From contig JAMNXK010000073.1 of the NCBI GenBank assembly GCA_023653245.1, positions 1 through 7,947 on the forward strand: a DNA stretch of 7,947 bases, given 5' to 3'. The notes under the pieces were generated by a model. It did not search any database and was not told where the DNA came from. It was given only the letters and a program-made list of their open reading frames with translations. This document shows, in pieces, positions 1-7,947 of the stretch; position 1 is the stretch's first letter; each line of letters opens with the position of its first letter. Both the position numbers and the translations under genes were made by a program. The DNA is from Tagaea sp. GTDB taxonomy: Bacteria > Pseudomonadota > Alphaproteobacteria > CACIAM-22H2.

Positions 1-515
1 GTCTGGTAAAGCGCGTAGAGCTCGTTGGGCAGCTCGGTGCGGTCCATCTTCTCGAGGCCGGGGAAGCGCGCGGCGGGGACCACGATGCGCTCGACGATCG
101 CCGCCGCCCCGTCGAGCAGGCGCACGCGCGCGAGGCGCACCACGCGCGCCAGTGCCGGCAGCGCGAGACGCAGCGCTTCCGTGCGCGTCGGCGCGCCCGA
201 TTTGATCGCGAGCACGCGGCTTTCGGGCTGGGCGCGCCCGCCGCCATCGGTCTCCAGATGCAGGAAATGGAACAGCGCGCGCTCGCGCGTGTGCTCGGCC
301 ACGTAGGTGCCCTTGCCCTGGCGGCGGACGACCAGGCGGGCCTGGGCGAGCTCGTCGAGCGCGCGGCGCATCGTGCCCTGACTCACGCCGTACTCGGCCG
401 CGAGCGCGAATTCGTTGGGCAGCGCTTGGCCGGGCTTCCAGTCGGCGTCGACCAGCCGGCGGACCAGCGAGTCCTTCACTTGGGCGTAGAGCGGGCGGGC
501 GACGGGGCGGTCCAT
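1..515 (-). CDS. GntR/HutC-family transcriptional regulator with UTRA domain, C-terminus cut by window edge
   Basis: Reading the minus strand from the ATG at 515-513 gives an open frame of 171 codons that runs off the left edge. Residues about 8-73 form a GntR winged helix-turn-helix: PLYAQVKDSL near the start, then KPGQALPNE, YGVSQGTMRRALDEL (recognition-helix region, 42-56) and the wing RRQGKGTYVAE (64-74). From about residue 80 the sequence (ERALFHFL, then ESRVLAIKSG and VRLLDGAAAIVERIVVP) matches the start of a UTRA ligand-binding domain, as in HutC/FarR-type repressors. Such proteins usually bind a small metabolite and release the operator. It is transcribed away from suyA, with a palindrome between them, so it is the likely repressor of the sulfonate operon; the inducer may be sulfolactate or a related metabolite (inference). 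No clear Shine-Dalgarno precedes the ATG. About 70 C-terminal residues appear to be missing, judged by usual family length. Confidence 0.9.
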   Translation of the reverse strand, partial: MDRPVARPLYAQVKDSLVRRLVDADWKPGQALPNEFALAAEYGVSQGTMRRALDELAQARLVVRRQGKGTYVAEHTRERALFHFLHLETDGGGRAQPESRVLAIKSGAPTRTEALRLALPALARVVRLARVRLLDGAAAIVERIVVPAARFPGLEKMDRTELPNELYALYQ

Positions 516-655: not shown

Positions 656-940
656 ATGGCAACCCAATTCATCGTCCACGACAAGAAGGACACCGTCGGC
701 GTCATCGTCGTGGAGGACGTCAAAGCCGGCGCCACGCTCGAAGGCTGGCTGATGGAAGGCGACGGCACCGTCAAGGTGAAGGCGCTCAAGCCCGTGCCGC
801 TCGGCCACAAGATCGCGATGGTCGATCTCAAGAAGGGCGACACGGTGCTGAAATACGGCCACGACATCGGCCGCATGATCGCCGACGCCAAGAAGGGCGA
901 TCACGTCCACGTCCACAACATGAAAACCAAGCGCTGGTAA
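656..940 (+). CDS. suyA: (2R)-sulfolactate sulfo-lyase, small (alpha) subunit; UxaA-type SAF domain
   Basis: This 94-residue protein is a stand-alone SAF-type domain, the small subunit that in UxaA/altronate dehydratase is fused ahead of the catalytic part. Diagnostic segments are [15 protein letters not shown] (6-20), [15 protein letters not shown] (48-62), [20 protein letters not shown] (66-85) and the ending HNMKTKRW. Together with the large subunit encoded 11 bp downstream it would form the cytoplasmic lyase that splits (R)-3-sulfolactate into pyruvate and sulfite. The split two-gene layout, the size and the KTKRW end fit SuyA as I remember it, rather than fused altronate or galactarate dehydratases. 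The start is set by GAGGGAGA at 645-652. A dehydratase for a sugar acid is the main alternative, but the sulfite-exporter gene next to suyB argues for the sulfonate role. Confidence 0.87.
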
Positions 941-951
941 GGGAGCGGAAC

Positions 952-2160
952 ATGGCCAAGGCACCCGCCGTCATCAAGAAGCGCTCCAAGTCCACCGGCA
1001 AGCTGCCCTTCATGGGCTTCCGCCGCGAGAACGGGCGCGTGGGGATCCGCAATCACGTCATCATCCTGCCGCTGGACGATCTGTCCAACGCGGCGGCCGA
1101 AGCGGTGGCGAACAACATCAAGGGCACGATCGCGCTGCCGCACGCCTATGGGCGCCTGCAGTTCGGCGAGGATCTGGCGCTGCATTTCCGCACCCTGATC
1201 GGGACGGGCTGCAACGCCAACGTCGCCGCGGTCGTGGTCATCGGCATCGAGCCGAGCTGGACCGGCCGCGTGGTCGAAGGCATCGCCAAGACCGGCAAGC
1301 CCGTGCAGGGCTTCGCCATCGAAGGCAACGGCGATCTCAAGACCATCGAGGCCGCCAGCCGTGTGGCCCAGCAATTCGTCATGTGGGCCACGGAAAAGCA
1401 GCGCGAAGAATGCCACATCGACGAGCTGTGGGTTTCGACCAAGTGCGGCGAGTCCGACACCACGTCGGGTCTCGCCTCGTGCCCGACCGTCGGCAATCTC
1501 ATCGACAAGATCGACCCGCTGGGCGCGACGACCTGCTTCGGCGAAACCTCGGAGCTGACCGGGGCGGAGAAGGAGATGGTCAAGCGCGCGGTGGACAAGT
1601 CGGTCGCCGACAAGTTCATGGCGACGTTCAACGCCTATCAGGACGTGATCAACCGCCACAAAACGTCCGATCTGTCCGACTCCCAGCCGACCAAGGGCAA
1701 TATCGCGGGCGGTCTGACCACGATCGAGGAAAAGGCCTTCGGCAATTTCCAGAAGATCGGCCACAAGACCAAGTACGTCGACGTGCTGACCCCGGCGGAA
1801 GCGCCGGCCAAGGGTCCGGGCCTCTACTTCATGGACACGTCCTCGGCCGCGGCCGAATGCGTGACCTTGCAGGCGGCGGCCGGGTTCGTGGTGCATCTGT
1901 TCCCGACGGGTCAGGGCAACGTGATCGGCAATCCGATCGAGCCGGTGATCAAGCTCACGGCCAATCCGAAGACCGCGCGCCTGATGCCCGAGCATATCGA
2001 TCTCGACTGCTCGGGAATCTTGCGTCGCGAGATGGATCTGGACGAGGCGGGCGACCGTCTTCTCGACATCATGATCCGCGTGTGCAACGGCCGCTACACG
2101 TGCGCCGAAGCCTTGGGCCATCGCGAATTCGTGATGACCAAGCTCTACCAAAGCGCCTGA
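952..2160 (+). CDS. suyB: (2R)-sulfolactate sulfo-lyase, large (beta) subunit; UxaA/GarD family
   Basis: The 402-residue product is the catalytic subunit of a UxaA-family lyase. Landmarks are [14 protein letters not shown] (21-34), [14 protein letters not shown] (62-75), GTGCN (84-88), [12 protein letters not shown] (162-173), FGETSELTG (196-204), [10 protein letters not shown] (241-250), [14 protein letters not shown] (291-304) and [19 protein letters not shown] (317-335), ending [14 protein letters not shown]. Family members are iron-dependent; Cys165 in KCGESD is a plausible metal ligand (inference). The reaction expected is (R)-sulfolactate to pyruvate plus sulfite. These segments match SuyB sequences as I remember them much better than altronate dehydratase. 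GGGAG at 941-945 supports the ATG at 952. This start adds about 20 lysine-rich residues before the conserved core; Met21 (1012) has no ribosome-binding site. It forms a transcription unit with suyA and is followed by a strong hairpin. Confidence 0.9.
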
Positions 2161-2200: not shown

Positions 2201-2932
2201 ATGGGGATCGATCTTCCGGGCGAGGCTTGGCTCGCGCTGGGCCTGTTCGCCGCGAGCGTCGCTTCGGGCCTCGCGGGTTTCGCTTTCGCGCTGATCGCCT
2301 CGGCGACGGCGCTGCATTTCCGCGATCCGATCGACGCCACGCCCTTGATCCTGGCGGGCTCGCTGCTCGCCCAATGCCTGACCATCCTGGCCTTTCGCGG
2401 CCACGTCAAATGGGACCGCGTGCTGCCGTTCGTGTTGTGCGGCCTCGCCGGGATTCCGCTCGGCACCTGGCTGCTCGCCGCGATCCCCGCCGAGCCGCTG
2501 CGCCAGGGGATCGGCGCGTTCCTGGTGGCGTACGCCGCCTATATGCTCTTTCGCGGCCAACCCAAGCCCTTGCGCTGGGGCGGGAAGAGCGCCGATGGCG
2601 CCGTCGGATTCCTGGGCGGCGTGTTGGGCGGGTTGGGCGGATTGTCGGGCGCGCTGCCCACGCTGTGGGCGGGCTTGCGCGGCTGGTCGCGCGACGAGCA
2701 GCGCGCGGTCTATCAGCCCTACATCTTCGCCATGCAGACCGCGGCGCTCGCGGCCCTCTGGGCGCGGGACGCGATCGGGCCGCGCGCGGTCGCCGATTTC
2801 GCCTGGTGCTTGCCGCCGATCGTGCTGGGCGCGTGGCTGGGCCTGAAGCTCTACGGCCGCGTGGACGATTCGCAATTCCGCCGGATCGTGCTCGGCTTGT
2901 TGCTCGCATCGGGAGTCGTGTTGCTCGTCTAG
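2201..2932 (+). CDS. TauE/SafE-family membrane protein, probable sulfite exporter
   Basis: The 243-residue product is almost wholly hydrophobic, with about seven or eight predicted membrane segments in two related halves, as in the TauE/SafE (DUF81) family. Half one carries GLAGFAFALIASATAL (23-38) and GIPLGTWLL (84-92); half two carries GFLGGVLGGLGGLSGALP (136-153) and GAWLGLKLYG (210-219). Proteins of this family export sulfite or sulfoacetate, or move other small anions, across the inner membrane. Its place directly after suyAB fits removal of the sulfite made by the lyase. The ATG at 2201 is the only good start before the first membrane segment, yet it has no Shine-Dalgarno and sits at the foot of the hairpin at 2170-2193, so expression may be low or coupled to suyB. 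The substrate is inferred from context. Confidence 0.85.
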   Translation: MGIDLPGEAWLALGLFAASVASGLAGFAFALIASATALHFRDPIDATPLILAGSLLAQCLTILAFRGHVKWDRVLPFVLCGLAGIPLGTWLLAAIPAEPLRQGIGAFLVAYAAYMLFRGQPKPLRWGGKSADGAVGFLGGVLGGLGGLSGALPTLWAGLRGWSRDEQRAVYQPYIFAMQTAALAALWARDAIGPRAVADFAWCLPPIVLGAWLGLKLYGRVDDSQFRRIVLGLLLASGVVLLV

Positions 2933-2987: not shown

Positions 2988-4019
2988 ATGGAATTCGCCA
3001 AGACCCCGCGCCCGACGCGGCGCGCCTTCGTCGCCGGCGTGGCCGGCGCGCTCGCGGCACCGCTGGTGTCCAACGCGCAGACGGAAGTGCGCGAGGTGCG
3101 CGTCGCCAAGCAATTCGGCATTTCCTATCTGCCGCTGATGATCATGGAGGACCGCCAGCTGATCGAGAAGCACGCGGCCGCCCAAGGATTGCCCGGCGTG
3201 CGCACGAATTGGCTGCAATTCGCGGGCGGCGCGCCGATCAACGACGCGCTCATTTCGGGCAGCCTCGAATTCGCCGGCGGCGGCGTCGGGCCGATGATCA
3301 CGCTGTGGGCGCGCACGCGCGGGAATCTGGGCGTGCGCGGCGTGGCCTCGCTCAACGCGATGCCGCTTTTTCTCAACACCGTGAACCCGAACGTGCGCAC
3401 GATCCGCGACTTCACCGATCGCGACCGCATCGGCCTGCCGGCCGTGCGCGTGTCGATCCAGGCGGTGACGCTGCAGATGGCGTGCGAGGCGGCGTTCGGC
3501 CCCGGCCAGCACGGGCGGCTGGACAACATCACCGTGTCGATGTCCCACCCCGACGCGATGAACGCGATGATGTCCGGGCGCAGCGAAGTGACCGCGCATT
3601 TCGGCTCGCCGCCGTTCCAGAACACCCAGTTGCAAGACGCGCGCGTGCGCCGCGTGCTGTCGAACTACGAAGTGCTCGGCGGCTCGGCCTCGTTCAATTT
3701 CATGTGGACCACGGCCCGCGTGCGCGACAACAACCCGCGCATCTACCGCGCCTTCATGGCCGCGTTGGAGGAGGCGCAAGCCTTGATCCGCTCGGACGCG
3801 TCGACGGCCGCGGACATCTATCTCAAGGTCGAGCGCTCGACGCTCTCCAAGGAGTTCGTGCTCGGTCTGCTGCGCAATCCCGAGCACGAGTTCACCTCCG
3901 TGCCGCGCAACACGATGAGGTACGCCGAGTTCATGCAGCGCACCGGCACGGTCGCGGTGCGGCCGGCGGGCTGGCAGGAGCTCTACTTCCCCGAGCTGCA
4001 CGGCGTGCAAGGCTCGTGA
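2988..4019 (+). CDS. ABC transporter substrate-binding protein, NitT/TauT (NMT1-like) family, Tat signal
   Basis: This 343-residue protein starts with a twin-arginine signal: TRRAFVAG (10-17), a hydrophobic stretch and SNA-QT, giving probable cleavage after residue 30. It should fold in the cytoplasm and be exported by Tat to the periplasm. The mature part begins REVRVAKQFGISYLPLMIM, the usual first strand of TauA/SsuA/NMT1-type proteins. It continues with GGAPINDALISGSLEFAGGG (80-99) and the signature TARLR-like region replaced by PAVRVSIQAVTLQMACE (151-167). This family binds sulfonates, nitrate, aromatic acids and pyrimidine precursors. Its setting beside suyAB suggests sulfolactate or another sulfonate (inference). 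The ATPase gene overlaps its stop codon by 4 nt, so the two are translationally coupled. A clear paralogue lies at 6807-7826. Confidence 0.85.
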   Translation: MEFAKTPRPTRRAFVAGVAGALAAPLVSNAQTEVREVRVAKQFGISYLPLMIMEDRQLIEKHAAAQGLPGVRTNWLQFAGGAPINDALISGSLEFAGGGVGPMITLWARTRGNLGVRGVASLNAMPLFLNTVNPNVRTIRDFTDRDRIGLPAVRVSIQAVTLQMACEAAFGPGQHGRLDNITVSMSHPDAMNAMMSGRSEVTAHFGSPPFQNTQLQDARVRRVLSNYEVLGGSASFNFMWTTARVRDNNPRIYRAFMAALEEAQALIRSDASTAADIYLKVERSTLSKEFVLGLLRNPEHEFTSVPRNTMRYAEFMQRTGTVAVRPAGWQELYFPELHGVQGS

Positions 4020-4810
4020 ACGCCGCCCCGCCGCTGCTGGAGGTCGACGGCGTCACGCTCCAGTACAAGACCAAGGACCATCTGGTCACCGCGACGTACC
4101 GGGTGAGCTTCCAGGTGCACCGCGCCGACCGCTACGTGCTGCTCGGGCCGTCGGGCTGCGGGAAGTCGACGTTGCTGAAGGGCGTGGCCGGGTTCATGCA
4201 GCCGGTCGAAGGAAGGATGAGTCTCGACGGGCGCGAGATCTCCGCACCCGGTCCCGACCGGATGATGGTCTTCCAGGAATTCGACCAGCTGCTGCCCTGG
4301 AAGACCGTCGAGCAGAACGTGATGTTCCCGATGCTGTGCGCGGGCAAATGGAGCAAGGCCGAAGCGCGCGAGCGCGCGCGGCGGTTCATCGACAAGGTCA
4401 ACCTGACCAAGTTCCGCGAGGCCTATCCGCACATGCTGTCCGGCGGGATGAAGCAGCGCGTGGCGATCGCCCGCGCGATGGCGATGGAGCCGCAGATTCT
4501 GCTGATGGACGAGCCTTACGCGGCGCTCGACGCGCTCACCCGGCGCAAGATGCAGGAGGAGCTGCTCGAACTCTGGGACGACGTGCGTTTCACCGTGCTG
4601 TTCGTCACCCATTCGATCGAGGAAGCGATCATCGTCGGCTCGCGCATTCTGGTGCTGTCGCCGCATCCGGGCCGGGTGAAGGCCGAGCTCAACTGCCATC
4701 ATTTCGATCACAAGACCCAAGGCGGGCCCGAGTTCCAGACGCTGCACCGCAAGATCCACGACATGCTCTTCGCCGAGCGCATCGAAGAGGAGAAAGCCGC
4801 CCATGGCTGA
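4016..4810 (+). CDS. ABC transporter ATPase, nitrate/sulfonate/taurine type
   Basis: The 264-residue product carries every ABC ATPase motif: Walker A GPSGCGKST (44-52), Q-loop VFQEFDQLLPW (85-95), signature LSGGMKQR (141-148), Walker B ILLMDEP (161-167), D-loop AALD (169-172) and switch His199 in VTHS. The QLLPWKTV segment after the Q-loop is typical of the TauB/SsuB/NrtD group. It would power import through the permease encoded next. I chose the GTG at 4016, which overlaps the previous stop as GTGA and leads directly into LLEVDGVTLQYK, the normal family start. The frame is open far upstream, but that part is antisense-like, arginine-rich noise over the binding-protein gene. The 3' end overlaps the permease start by 8 nt. 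Confidence 0.92.
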   Translation: MNAAPPLLEVDGVTLQYKTKDHLVTATYRVSFQVHRADRYVLLGPSGCGKSTLLKGVAGFMQPVEGRMSLDGREISAPGPDRMMVFQEFDQLLPWKTVEQNVMFPMLCAGKWSKAEARERARRFIDKVNLTKFREAYPHMLSGGMKQRVAIARAMAMEPQILLMDEPYAALDALTRRKMQEELLELWDDVRFTVLFVTHSIEEAIIVGSRILVLSPHPGRVKAELNCHHFDHKTQGGPEFQTLHRKIHDMLFAERIEEEKAAHG

Positions 4811-5681
4811 CGCCGCCAAGCTCGCGCCGCCGATCCGGCCGGAGTTCGAGGTCAAAGTCGGCGAGGCGCAATTCGGCGCGGTCGAGCGCCCGCTCTCGGC
4901 GTGGGAGCGGCTGACCAACATCACCTGGGTCCGCCGCGCCTTCATCATCGCCGTGTTGGCGTCGGCGTGGCAGATTTACGCCACGTTCCTCGACAACCCG
5001 CTGATGTTTCCGACCTTCGTCGAGGTGTGCGGCGCGTTCTACGACGCTTTCGTCAAAGGCCCGCTGCTCGGCCGGATGTTCACGACCATCCAAGTGCTGT
5101 TCATGGGCTACGGCACGGGATTGGCGCTGGCGGCCGTGTTCACGACGCTCGCGGTCTCCACGCGCATCGGCAACGATCTGCTCTCCACGCTCACCGCGAT
5201 GTTCAACCCGCTGCCGGCGATCGCGCTGCTGCCGCTCGCGCTGCTGTGGTTCGGGCTCGGCATCCCCTCGCTCGTCTTCGTGATCGTGCATTCGGTGCTG
5301 TGGGCGGTGGCGCTCAACACGCATACGGGATTCAAGTCGGTGTCCGAAACTTTGCGCATGGCGGGGATGAATTACGGCCTGACCGGCGTGCGCTACGTGA
5401 TGAAGATCCTGATCCCGGCGGCGTTCCCGTCGATTCTGGCGGGCCTCAAGATCGGCTGGGCTTTCGCCTGGCGCACGCTGATCGCCGCCGAGCTGGTGTT
5501 CGGCGTGTCGGCGCGCTCGGGCGGGCTGGGCTGGTACATCTTCGAGAACCGGAACCTGCTCGAAACCGCCAACGTGTTCGCCGGCCTGTTGACGGTGATC
5601 ATCATCGGCCTGTTCGTCGAGGGCGTGATCTTCCGCTATATCGAAGCCAAGACCGTGCGCCGTTGGGGCATGCAGCGTTAG
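4803..5681 (+). CDS. ABC transporter permease, SsuC/TauC type
   Basis: The 292-residue product has a cytoplasmic N-terminus of about 45 residues and then roughly six membrane segments (about 46-62, 93-117, 137-155, 156-172, 205-232 and 258-278). The EAA loop that docks on the ATPase is at 181-209: SETLRMAGMNYGLTG followed by KILIPAAFP. The region after it, GLKIGWAFAWRTLIAAEL and SGGLGWYI, is characteristic of nitrate/sulfonate/taurine permeases. One permease gene is present, so the channel is expected to be a homodimer. The ATG at 4803 overlaps the ATPase stop by 8 nt and follows a GAAGAGGAGAAAG purine-rich ribosome-binding region. The following enzyme gene begins 4 nt after the stop, which ties that enzyme to the importer. 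Confidence 0.92.
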   Translation: MADAAKLAPPIRPEFEVKVGEAQFGAVERPLSAWERLTNITWVRRAFIIAVLASAWQIYATFLDNPLMFPTFVEVCGAFYDAFVKGPLLGRMFTTIQVLFMGYGTGLALAAVFTTLAVSTRIGNDLLSTLTAMFNPLPAIALLPLALLWFGLGIPSLVFVIVHSVLWAVALNTHTGFKSVSETLRMAGMNYGLTGVRYVMKILIPAAFPSILAGLKIGWAFAWRTLIAAELVFGVSARSGGLGWYIFENRNLLETANVFAGLLTVIIIGLFVEGVIFRYIEAKTVRRWGMQR

Positions 5682-5685
5682 ACCG

Positions 5686-6795
5686 ATGAAGATCGCCGCG
5701 CTCGATTTCATCGCATTGGCGGTCCCGGCCGAGCCGCCGCCGGTCACGTCGTTCGGCCTGATGCTGCGGCGTTCGGCGCTGCTGGTGCGCGCGCGCGACG
5801 CGGACGGTGCTTATGGCTGGGGCGAGATCTGGTGCAATTTCCCGCTCCGCGCGATGGCGGCGCGCAAAGCGCTGGGCGAAGACGTGTTCGCACCCGTGTT
5901 GCTCGGCGCCGCGTTCGACGGGCCGCAAGCCGCGCACGCGCACCTCGCCCAACGCACGCATGTGTTGTCGCTGCAGACCGGCGAGCCCGGGACTTTCGCC
6001 CAGGTGCTGGCGGGGATCGACCAGGCGCTGTGGGATCTGGCGGCGCGCAAAGCGGGCCTGCCGCTGTGGAAGTTTCTCGGCGGCACCGGCGGGTCGGTCG
6101 CGACCTACGCCTCGGGCATGGGGCCCGAGGGCGCGGACGCGCAAGCCGCCGCCAAGCGCGCGCAAGGCTTCGACGCGTTCAAGCTCAAGATCGGTTTCGC
6201 CGCCGAGCGCGACCGCGCCAATCTCGCGGCATTGCGCGCGGGTGCGGGGGCCGGCGCCGTCGTCATGGCCGACGCGAACCAGGCTTGGGACGTCGACGAA
6301 GCGTGCAAGCGCGCGGACATGTACGCCGAGTTCGGCCTCGATTGGCTCGAAGAGCCGCTGCCCGCCGACCGGCCGATCGAGGAATGGCGGCGCGTGGCGG
6401 CGGCGGCACCGATGCAACTCGCGGCCGGCGAAAATCTGCGCGACGGCGCCTTCGACGCGGCGATCGAAAGCCTGACGCTGGGCGTGTTGCAGCCGGATAT
6501 CGCCAAATGGGGCGGGTTCACGCGCTGCTTGCCGCTCGCGAAAAAGGCGATGGCGTCGGGCTTGCGCTTCTGCCCGCATTTCCTGGGCGGTGCCGTCGGT
6601 CTGGCCGCGTCGGCCCATTTGCTCGCGGCGGCGGGCGGCGGCGGGCGCTTGGAGATCGACGCCCAGAACAACGCCTTGCGCGACCGGCTGCTGCCCGATT
6701 TTCCGCGCGTGCGCGACGGGCGCTTGACCCTGCCCGATCGGCCCGGACTGGGCTACGATCCCGACCCGGACATGTTGAAAGCGTCCGCGGTCTAG
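5686..6795 (+). CDS. Enolase-superfamily enzyme, mandelate racemase subgroup, substrate unknown
   Basis: The 369-residue length and motifs match mandelate racemase-type (MR) enzymes almost position for position. The N-terminal capping domain covers about residues 1-120. The barrel then shows FKLKIG with Lys166 and Lys168 (KxK base), metal ligands Asp196 (MADANQAW), Glu222 (WLEEP) and Glu249 (AAGEN), the His-Asp dyad Asp271 (QPD) and His298 (CPH), and Glu323 (LEID), the usual electrophilic Glu. These enzymes abstract the proton next to a carboxylate and then racemise or beta-eliminate. Both bases are intact, so either chemistry is possible. The gene starts 4 nt after the permease stop with no clear Shine-Dalgarno, implying coupling. 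Context suggests a sulfonated 2-hydroxyacid as substrate; an ordinary sugar-acid dehydratase is the alternative. The family is certain, the reaction is not. Confidence 0.9.
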   Translation: MKIAALDFIALAVPAEPPPVTSFGLMLRRSALLVRARDADGAYGWGEIWCNFPLRAMAARKALGEDVFAPVLLGAAFDGPQAAHAHLAQRTHVLSLQTGEPGTFAQVLAGIDQALWDLAARKAGLPLWKFLGGTGGSVATYASGMGPEGADAQAAAKRAQGFDAFKLKIGFAAERDRANLAALRAGAGAGAVVMADANQAWDVDEACKRADMYAEFGLDWLEEPLPADRPIEEWRRVAAAAPMQLAAGENLRDGAFDAAIESLTLGVLQPDIAKWGGFTRCLPLAKKAMASGLRFCPHFLGGAVGLAASAHLLAAAGGGGRLEIDAQNNALRDRLLPDFPRVRDGRLTLPDRPGLGYDPDPDMLKASAV

Positions 6796-6806: not shown

Positions 6807-7826
6807 ATGCGCATCGGATTGACGCGCCGCACGGCGCTGGGCACCGGTTTGGCGGCGATGTCCGCCCCCGCTGTGGCGCAAGCGCCGGCGGAGGCCCGCC
6901 AGGTTCGGCTCATTCAGCAATTGTCGATCATGTACGTGCCGGTGGACGCGATGGTCCAGAACGGCCTGATCGCCAAGCACGCTGCGGCGATGGGGCTCGG
7001 GCCGATCGCCGCGAGCGCCGCCACCACGTCCTCCGCCGCCGGGATCAACGACGCGGTCTTGTCGGGCACGGCGGATTTCGGCACCGGCGGTCCGCCGCCT
7101 TTGCTGACCATGTGGGACCGCACGCGCGGCAATCTCGACGTGCGCGCCATCGGCGCCATGGCCGAAGTGCCCATGCAGCTCTACACGACCGATCCGCGCA
7201 TCCGCAGCATAGCCGATTTCCGCCCCGACGACCGCATCGCGCTGCCCGCGCCGCGCGTGTCGTTCCAGGCCATCGTGCTGCAGATCGCCGCCGAGCGGCA
7301 ATGGGGCGACGCCGCGCGCCTCGACCAGAACGCGGTGGCGATGGGCCATCCCGACGCGATCGCGCAGATGAGCGCGGGGCCGGGCCGCTCGTCGATCGCG
7401 GCGCACTTCGCCGTGCCGCCCTTCACCCAGCAGGGTCTGCGCCTGCCCGGCGCGCGCGTGATCCTCGACAGCCAGGAGCTGCTCGGCGGCGCGTTCACGC
7501 AGATGACGCTCTATTGCACGCGCCGGTTCAAGGAAGGCAATCCGCGCCTGTGGCAGGCATGTGTGGCGGCCTACGACGAGGCGGTCGATTGGGTGGCCGC
7601 GAACAAGCGCGCGGCGGCGGAGTTGTGGAAGCGCGTGCACGCGTCGAACGAGAGCGTCGAGGCGCTGCTGGCGCAGATCGAAGACCCGCGCTTTCGCTTC
7701 ACCACCGTGCCCAATCGCACGATGATGATCGCCGACACCATGCATCGCCGGGGCCTGATCCGGAACAAGCCCGAGTCCTGGCGCGACTATTTCTGGGAAA
7801 ACGTCCACGCGCGGGCGGGCAGTTGA
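6807..7826 (+). CDS. Second ABC substrate-binding protein, paralogue of the first
   Basis: The 339-residue protein has a Tat-like signal (LTRRTALGTG at 5-14, hydrophobic stretch, then AVAQA with cleavage near residue 24-26) and is expected in the periplasm. It is a full-length NMT1/TauA-type binding protein related to the one at 2988-4019. Shared landmarks are IAKHAAAMGL against IEKHAAAQGL, GINDAVLSGTADF against PINDALISGSLEF, TRGNLDVR against TRGNLGVR, PAPRVSFQAIVLQ against PAVRVSIQAVTLQ, and HPDAIAQMSAG against HPDAMNAMMSG. It has no transporter of its own in the window, so it probably feeds the same permease and widens or tunes its substrate range (inference). The two have diverged well beyond a recent duplication, including much of the lobe facing the ligand. 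Confidence 0.87.
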   Translation: MRIGLTRRTALGTGLAAMSAPAVAQAPAEARQVRLIQQLSIMYVPVDAMVQNGLIAKHAAAMGLGPIAASAATTSSAAGINDAVLSGTADFGTGGPPPLLTMWDRTRGNLDVRAIGAMAEVPMQLYTTDPRIRSIADFRPDDRIALPAPRVSFQAIVLQIAAERQWGDAARLDQNAVAMGHPDAIAQMSAGPGRSSIAAHFAVPPFTQQGLRLPGARVILDSQELLGGAFTQMTLYCTRRFKEGNPRLWQACVAAYDEAVDWVAANKRAAAELWKRVHASNESVEALLAQIEDPRFRFTTVPNRTMMIADTMHRRGLIRNKPESWRDYFWENVHARAGS

Positions 7827-7849: not shown

Positions 7850-7947
7850 ATGCACGATATCGTCGTGACGGAATTCGTCGACCAATGGGCGGTCGACGAC
7901 CTCGCCAAGGACTACAAGGTCCATTACGACCCCAAGCTGGTCGACAA
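7850..7947 (+). CDS. slcC: D-2-hydroxyacid dehydrogenase N-terminus, probable (S)-sulfolactate dehydrogenase, cut by window edge
   Basis: Only 32 codons are present before the right edge. They read MHDIVVTEFVDQWAVDDLA, then KDYKVHYDPKLVD. This is the first strand, helix and second strand of the substrate-binding domain in D-isomer-specific 2-hydroxyacid dehydrogenases (phosphoglycerate dehydrogenase-like). SlcC, which oxidises (S)-sulfolactate to sulfopyruvate with NAD in the known sulfolactate pathway, belongs to this family, and the TEF.D start is what I remember of SlcC-like proteins. GGAG at 7838-7841 supports the ATG at 7850. The family is likely from the N-terminus; the specific activity rests on the suyAB context. 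Hydroxypyruvate reductase or phosphoglycerate dehydrogenase are alternatives. Confidence 0.65.
   Translation, partial: MHDIVVTEFVDQWAVDDLAKDYKVHYDPKLVD

Follow-up and report, generated by a model that had tools for sequence, protein, structure and literature searches.

A mandelate-racemase-type enzyme in the sulfolactate operon of Tagaea sp. and its relatives: a sulfonate-linked accessory gene that may invert sulfolactate

The stretch of DNA analysed here, hereafter the window, comprises 7,947 nucleotides of the Tagaea sp. contig JAMNXK010000073.1 and carries a sulfolactate operon on its plus strand. Divergent from it, on the minus strand, lies the gene of a GntR/UTRA regulator (3..515; PF00392 and PF07702; 89% identity to the counterpart at locus L001), cut by the window start. 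The operon opens with the genes of the two subunits of (R)-sulfolactate sulfo-lyase: suyA (small subunit, 656..940) encodes a protein that is 90% identical to SuyA of loci L001 and L002 and that had no Pfam match, with a weak match to the N-terminal part of galactarate dehydratase; suyB (large subunit, 952..2160) encodes a protein with the Pfam domains GD_AH_C and GD_AH_second and 96% identity to that of L001. Next come a sulfite exporter of the TauE/SafE family (2201..2932; PF01925, E-value 1.9e-31) and the three components of an ABC importer, namely an SsuA-like substrate-binding protein (2988..4019; TIGR01728, 4.6e-13, below the cut-off), an ATPase of the taurine/sulfonate/nitrate type (4016..4810; PF00005, with NF008421 as best match, below the cut-off) and a permease (4803..5681; PF00528, with SaoP/SsuC-type matches below the cut-off). 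The permease is followed by a gene for a protein of the enolase superfamily (5686..6795; hereafter MR), by a second SsuA-like binding protein (6807..7826; TIGR01728, 1.9e-13, below the cut-off; 39% identity to the first binding protein of L001) and by the first 98 bases of slcC (7850..7947), the gene of an (S)-sulfolactate dehydrogenase homologue of the 2-hydroxyacid dehydrogenase type, cut by the window end. The starts of suyB and of the second binding protein gene are those set by the gene caller; the place of the latter, between MR and slcC, is taken in L001 by a gene for a ThDP enzyme.

As for the sulfolactate label of this operon, a 2026 review (PMC12890257) gives SuyAB as the (R)-sulfolactate sulfolyase identified in Cupriavidus pinatubonensis JMP134. 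SuyB of the window has 69.5% identity, over 95% of the protein, with a plasmid homologue of C. pinatubonensis encoded near hpsN/hpsO, and on this ground the label is sound. In addition, suyA, suyB and slcC run in one transcription direction, as in a suy operon; slcC was judged by its first 32 residues, which are 94% identical to those of the complete slcC of L001. The initial annotation had placed a mandelate-racemase-type enzyme inside a sulfolactate operon, and the gene order found, suyA-suyB-tauE-binding protein-ATPase-permease-MR-binding protein-slcC, agrees with it.

MR has 369 residues and contains both the N-terminal capping domain (MR_MLE_N, PF02746, 1.3e-10) and the C-terminal barrel domain (MR_MLE_C, PF13378, 5.1e-53), each above the cut-off, which assigns it to the mandelate-racemase subgroup of the enolase superfamily. 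This subgroup is recognised by a KxK motif, three acidic metal ligands, an Asp-His dyad and a Glu in the last strand; in MR these correspond to K166/K168, D196/E222/E249, D271-H298 and E323, so that the enzyme type and the eight residues named in the initial annotation were confirmed. Of the 211 family members aligned, 210 keep the full set of eight and L126 departs from it, by K168R; such a catalytic set can serve alpha-proton transfer on either face of the substrate. The predicted model of MR (pLDDT 91.7) has as its top fold match 3ddm, a mandelate racemase/muconate lactonizing enzyme-type (MR/MLE) protein of Bordetella bronchiseptica described by its structure only; it is the nearest solved relative of MR, but it has Gly in the alignment at the place of E323, a Glu that is present in all 211 aligned family rows, among which 3ddm is not included. 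We know of no activity for 3ddm, which is carried as a "putative mandelate racemase/muconate lactonizing enzyme". Next among the fold matches comes 3ozm (33% identity), likewise an enolase-superfamily protein of B. bronchiseptica; its title names m-xylarate and L-lyxarate as its partners in the complex, and in the alignment its 20s and 50s loops differ from those of MR.

A gap of 4 nt separates the end of the permease ORF (5681) from the ATG of MR (5686) and bears out the proposed coupling of MR to the importer; no clear Shine-Dalgarno sequence is visible upstream of this ATG. MR of the window and its L001 counterpart share 78-79% identity with a dN/dS of about 0.16, and the comparison of L002 with L197 gave a dN/dS of 0.05: the gene is under purifying selection, and a 369-codon ORF with these values is not a chance one. 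Relatives of MR were searched for in viral contigs as well, and none was found there.

A scan of GTDB genomes yielded at least 538 confirmed relatives of MR, and 80 loci among those listed were examined. The operon of the window recurs in L001 (MR 79% identical) and L002 (59%), and a search of 23 genomes from the order of L002's genome added two more, in G448 (61%; locus L197) and G443 (56%; locus L198). MR stands directly 3' of the permease gene in all five suy operons, and in L002 and in L197 it overlaps both of its neighbours by 4 nt. L198 is the leanest of them, with suyA, suyB, tauE, the binding protein, ATPase and permease genes, MR, slcC and comC. The window ends inside slcC, so the presence of comC can be read only in the other four operons, and in all of these slcC and a comC-like gene are found together. 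The comC-like gene of L001 belongs to Ldh_2, with L-sulfolactate dehydrogenase as best NCBIfam match (205 bits against a cut-off of 500), and those of L002, L197 and L198 were called by similarity to it. The idea that MR replaces comC is therefore ruled out; of the initial proposal that this clade co-occurs with suyAB and lacks comC, the first part stood in five operons and the second failed in every operon where it could be read.

In two further matches from the order of L002's genome, G453 (48%) and G375 (50%), MR lies away from the suy genes. The latter, a sister genome, has the same operon with nothing between the permease and fumarase genes and its MR-family gene on another contig, which makes MR dispensable. 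In the tree, the window falls inside a well supported set of 18 rows, with L198 outside it and the deep forks unresolved. The context is known for four of these 18 rows (window, L001, L002, L197), all of them in suy operons; three others are P-proteins near-identical to those of L001, L002 and L197, and the remaining 11 are without context. Over the whole tree, the label "suy context" (seven rows, including L056 and L079) is not clustered and takes seven changes. Since the gene keeps the same position in all context-known operons of the clade and in L198, the sulfonate link of MR is real, and a sulfonate-related role is well supported by gene position.

Some suy loci contain further gene sets. 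Downstream of comC, genes for an acyl-CoA dehydrogenase, a class III CoA-transferase and a FAS1-like dehydratase occur at L001:10669-13765, L002:17908-20991 and L192:4129-7186; this set could turn 3-sulfopropionate into sulfolactate via CoA esters. A succinate-dehydrogenase-like set with a class I fumarase/tartrate-dehydratase-like pair is found at L002:5029-15955 and in L197, L121, L127, L145, L153 and L230, some of these loci adding a ThDP enzyme and L230, on a Methylobacterium oryzae plasmid, also a dicarboxylate symporter. Such loci are candidates for a C4 sulfo-dicarboxylate route, for example from sulfosuccinate through sulfofumarate and 2-hydroxy-3-sulfosuccinate to sulfolactate; a literature search on sulfosuccinate degradation returned nothing on that route.

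Regarding how often suy loci carry such an enzyme, 64 suy stretches were inspected in three sets, nine of them shorter than 12 kb (including L177 with 3.1, L182 with 3.6, L167 with 6.3, L178 with 7.2, L149 with 7.8 and L139 with 8.7 kb). Two of the sets were drawn by SuyB alone: in the stretches obtained, an enolase-superfamily ORF was present in none of 27 loci of the first, which covers the family of the Variovorax genome G006, and in one of 16 loci of the second, which covers the class of G002 (Alphaproteobacteria), this one being G002 itself; among the loci from genomes picked for carrying the MR family, it was present in 7 of 21 (L001, L056, L140, L141, L142, L143 and L145). The two SuyB-drawn samples rule out MR as a regular part of suy operons and, together with the MR-less operon of G375, define it as an accessory gene.

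The association is visible at the level of whole genomes, too. With cut-offs of E ≤ 1e-70 for MR and E ≤ 1e-120 for SuyB, and with the centre genomes left out, SuyB was present in 5 of 9 genomes with MR against 10 of 180 without it in the class of G002 (p 0.0002), in 4 of 15 against 22 of 184 in the family of G006 (p 0.11, or 0.047 with the centre genome), and in 6 of 6 against 24 of 36 in the genus of G037 (Achromobacter; p 0.16). Over the three strata the Mantel-Haenszel odds ratio is 6.6 (p 3e-5); the alphaproteobacterial stratum is the only one significant alone, and genome size was controlled in the genus stratum only. No more than 10 MR candidates per genome were scored in the family and class samples, so that MR was perhaps missed in some genomes. 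The raw count, SuyB in 29 of 50 genomes with MR, is partly background, as 31 of 43 Achromobacter genomes have SuyB. Where both genes occur, they are mostly distant: in the class sample they lie on different contigs, or more than 2 Mb apart on the same contig, in the five non-centre genomes with both; of the four such genomes in the family sample, three have them on separate contigs and one, G103, at a distance of 21 kb.

The family that includes MR and 3ddm is large: of the 7995 candidates scored, 4841 reached E ≤ 1e-60. The 80 loci were examined up to 10 kb on each side, 22 of them offering less than 15 kb in all. SuyB, strictly called, was near MR in four (L001, L002, L056 and L079) and in none of the other 76. 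An SsuA-type binding protein was found in 34 of the 80, a sulfatase in 26 and a choline-dehydrogenase-like GMC oxidoreductase in 46; at least one among SsuA-type binding protein, sulfatase and SuyB occurred in 58 of 80 loci (43 of 58 when only loci with at least 15 kb are counted) against 1 of 20 control stretches. It should be noted that this sulfur context is a link and not a proof, since the loci are not independent (many are from Comamonadaceae), the controls are 20 hand-picked 20-kb stretches from genomes unmatched to the 80 loci, and importers of the SsuA type are not sulfonate-specific. A search of open-licence PMC articles found none in which the 3ddm family is given sulfolactate or another sulfonate as substrate. 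Protein and operon are each of a known kind; the placement of MR in a conserved suy operon and the organosulfur surroundings of its family are new to us.

Several of these neighbourhoods deserve a description of their own. In L016, L025, L035, L040 and others, the 3ddm-type gene adjoins genes for a GntR regulator, an SsuABC-type importer, a GMC oxidoreductase, an aldehyde dehydrogenase and sulfatases; this cluster of an organosulfur type recurs, and no description of it is known to us. A two-gene lyase of the UxaA type, which has about 30% identity to SuyB and belongs to the same fold family, lies directly 3' of MR in L024, and in L011 and L057 a UxaA-type lyase lies three genes past MR, after MR and an ABC importer; these three loci possibly represent another pairing of a lyase with MR. 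On the Paracoccus seriniphilus plasmid NZ_CP067132.1 (L229), a 45% relative of MR adjoins tctCBA and a gene annotated as L-arabinonate dehydratase, at a distance of about 11 kb from suyAB; hps-like genes fill part of the interval, and slcC/comC-like genes lie farther on. In Chelativorans petroleitrophicus (L079:9929-12251), a tctCBA-linked 48% relative of MR directly borders an SfcF-like gene, within what is likely a sulfofucose cluster that continues to suyAB. Another study reports that arylmalonate decarboxylase genes had an MR/MLE gene, not necessarily of this family, in their vicinity in 61% of its cases (PMC4996985).

The surroundings of the active site were compared between the 18 rows of the window clade and 189 other rows; the eight catalytic residues are unchanged between the two groups, save for L126. 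Six other positions differ: residue 12 is R in 187 of the 189 others and A/L in all 18 clade rows, residue 28 is D or E in 166 and A/R/M in the clade, residue 59 is H in 186 and A/G/T in the clade, and residue 61 is A in 175 and K/Q/R in the clade, these four lying around two specificity loops; near the last strand, residue 321 is L or M in 136 of the others and R/K in all 18, and residue 327 is N in 187 and Q in all 18. L198 shares with the clade only the loss of the acid at position 28 (Thr) and Gln 327, keeping the residues of the wider family at 12, 59 and 61. The positions would fit a changed distal group of the substrate with the chemistry kept and a less acidic 20s loop, which is suggestive only, as the 18 rows are close kin and kinship alone produces such positions.

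As for other members of the superfamily beside suyAB, a different enolase gene is found in the order suyA-suyB-tctC-ENO-comC in L142 and L143 and suyA-suyB-ENO in L141 (ENO at L142:7019-8188, L143:11496-12665 and L141:11134-12303). The ENO proteins of L142 and L143 are 92% identical and that of L141 is 59% identical to them, so the three cases count as two lineages. L143 ENO matches the 2dw7/1tzz family, which we take to be D-tartrate dehydratase, at 5e-146, against 2e-11 for 3ddm and 30% identity over 151 residues with MR of the window. D-tartrate dehydratase belongs to the same subgroup as MR, but to another family: 2dw7/1tzz is absent from the best 60 of the 185 solved matches of MR (the 60th at 2e-17), and MR is thus not its close homologue. 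SlcC (E ≤ 1e-60) was not found anywhere in the three genomes with this ENO type beside suyAB (G004, G005 and G009), nor was it found in 10 other suy genomes without an adjacent enolase ORF, of 19 searched, several of which are draft assemblies. Of 190 alphaproteobacterial genomes, 24 have this type, and in none of the five that also have SuyB do the two genes adjoin, which, with the cases reduced to two lineages, weakens the idea of a general stand-in for SlcC; beside suyAB it is a candidate for the same inversion or for a C4 elimination step. Yet another member lies near suyAB, slcC and comC in L145, with an L-Ala-D/L-Glu epimerase as best solved match. Recruitment of the enolase superfamily into suy loci is therefore rare but repeated.

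The window operon belongs to the known route in which the dehydrogenases SlcC and ComC invert sulfolactate for SuyAB, and its relatives have all four genes; the available descriptions of that route include no MR-type enzyme. A functional precedent for an enolase in a suy locus is SfcF, given in a 2025 mBio article (PMC12421959) as the sulfogalactonate dehydratase of Paracoccus wurundjeri, with the same two Pfam domains as MR (PF13378 and PF02746) and a cluster that also has suyAB, slcC, comC and an ABC cassette. With it, the initial statement that no enolase-superfamily member had been assigned to a sulfonate is out of date.

On the pattern of SfcF, MR would dehydrate a sulfonated sugar acid or a sugar diacid, with a 2-keto-3-deoxy product feeding the hub of the operon. 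This reading has the best biochemical precedent, and the sugar acids in the title of 3ozm and the L-arabinonate dehydratase annotated beside the P. seriniphilus relative point the same way; however, the partner enzymes expected from the sugar pathway of SfcF are not seen here, as no sulfofucose dehydrogenase, lactonase or aldolase was recognised in the available parts of the operons of L001, L002, L197, L198 and the window, the last cut at both ends. Moreover, MR has only 29% identity to the SfcF-like gene of L079, which was itself called from its neighbours and not by accession, and none of the NCBIfam dehydratase equivalogs (L-talarate/galactarate, galactonate, rhamnonate, glucarate) reached its cut-off, the best being TalGalacDh with 118.8 bits against 500. 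We consider a dehydratase rather unlikely. The same catalytic set could instead take the alpha proton and expel sulfite from C3, making MR a second sulfo-lyase that converts (S)-sulfolactate into pyruvate or 2-hydroxy-3-sulfosuccinate into oxaloacetate: MR-subgroup enzymes do catalyse beta-elimination, sulfite needs no acid catalyst, the operon has a TauE-type exporter, and the Sdh-like and class I fumarase-like genes of several suy loci could make 2-hydroxy-3-sulfosuccinate. Such a role is improbable, given that SuyAB already performs the elimination on (R)-sulfolactate in the same operon, that neither the lean L198 operon nor the window shows Sdh or fumarase genes, and that the search of open-licence PMC revealed no enolase-superfamily enzyme that expels sulfite.

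MR might also be an ordinary enzyme of acid sugars or hydroxy diacids that travels with the operon because its own substrate enters through the same importer, with sulfolactate not acted upon at all. The size of the family and the 76 of 80 loci where SuyB was not found are consistent with such a passenger, as are the dispensability of MR in G375 and the second binding protein of the window, but its identical place in five operons, tight coupling and purifying selection argue otherwise, and so does the sulfur context seen in 58 of the 80 loci; we regard this alternative as doubtful. A racemase, a dehydratase and a sulfo-lyase of this subgroup cannot be told apart by sequence, and it is the lean operon of L198 that favours a reaction starting and ending at sulfolactate or a near analogue: inversion or sulfite elimination would close the pathway there with no further enzymes, whereas a sugar-acid dehydratase would depend on enzymes that were not seen in this operon.

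The neighbourhoods in relatives suggest that MR handles a sulfonated hydroxy acid, possibly flipping its handedness. Our leading, and still tentative, explanation is that MR is an accessory enzyme whose substrate is a small 2-hydroxy acid bearing a further anionic group, and that its reaction is most likely the inversion of sulfolactate or of a close analogue. Substrate, reaction and direction we infer as follows: the enediolate formed from a small 2-hydroxycarboxylate, whose second anionic group is a sulfonate, would be stabilised by the lysines of the KxK motif and by Mg2+ bound to D196/E222/E249; the alpha proton would be moved by K168 on one face and by H298-D271 on the other; and sulfolactate, or a close 2-hydroxy-3-sulfo acid, would be inverted with no cofactor, the R form passing to the R-specific SuyAB, beside the redox route of SlcC and ComC. 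The conserved place in five operons, the two acid/base catalysts kept in 210 of 211 members, the co-occurrence with SuyB, the sulfur context of the family and the different enolase beside suyAB in three genomes where SlcC was not found all count for inversion. Against it count the operon of G375, the SuyB-drawn samples, the Gly of 3ddm at the place of E323 and the 10 other suy genomes in which SlcC was not found and no enolase ORF is adjacent; most characterised MR-subgroup enzymes, in addition, are acid-sugar dehydratases. A racemase would be redundant and not a comC substitute, since slcC and a comC-like gene accompany MR in all four readable operons; of the initial proposal, conserved membership of a suy operon is thus supported, and a one-step replacement of comC is not. 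The chemistry is also not specific to suy operons, the active-site residues being nearly invariant in relatives far from suyAB. The broader proposal, that cofactor-independent racemases of sulfolactate (2-hydroxy-3-sulfo acid) belong to a 3ddm-type family devoted to organosulfur acids, the D-tartrate-dehydratase type having been taken up for that step by lineages without SlcC, is a speculative one, about which we are doubtful.

In conclusion, whichever reading holds, an uncharacterised enolase family of thousands of proteins is tied to organosulfur neighbourhoods and so acquires its first testable substrate class, and the link helps to annotate sulfonate turnover in soil and water bacteria. 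If MR does invert sulfolactate, it would provide a one-step alternative to the route with two dehydrogenases and would account for the use of both sulfolactate enantiomers by some bacteria at no cost in redox cofactor.
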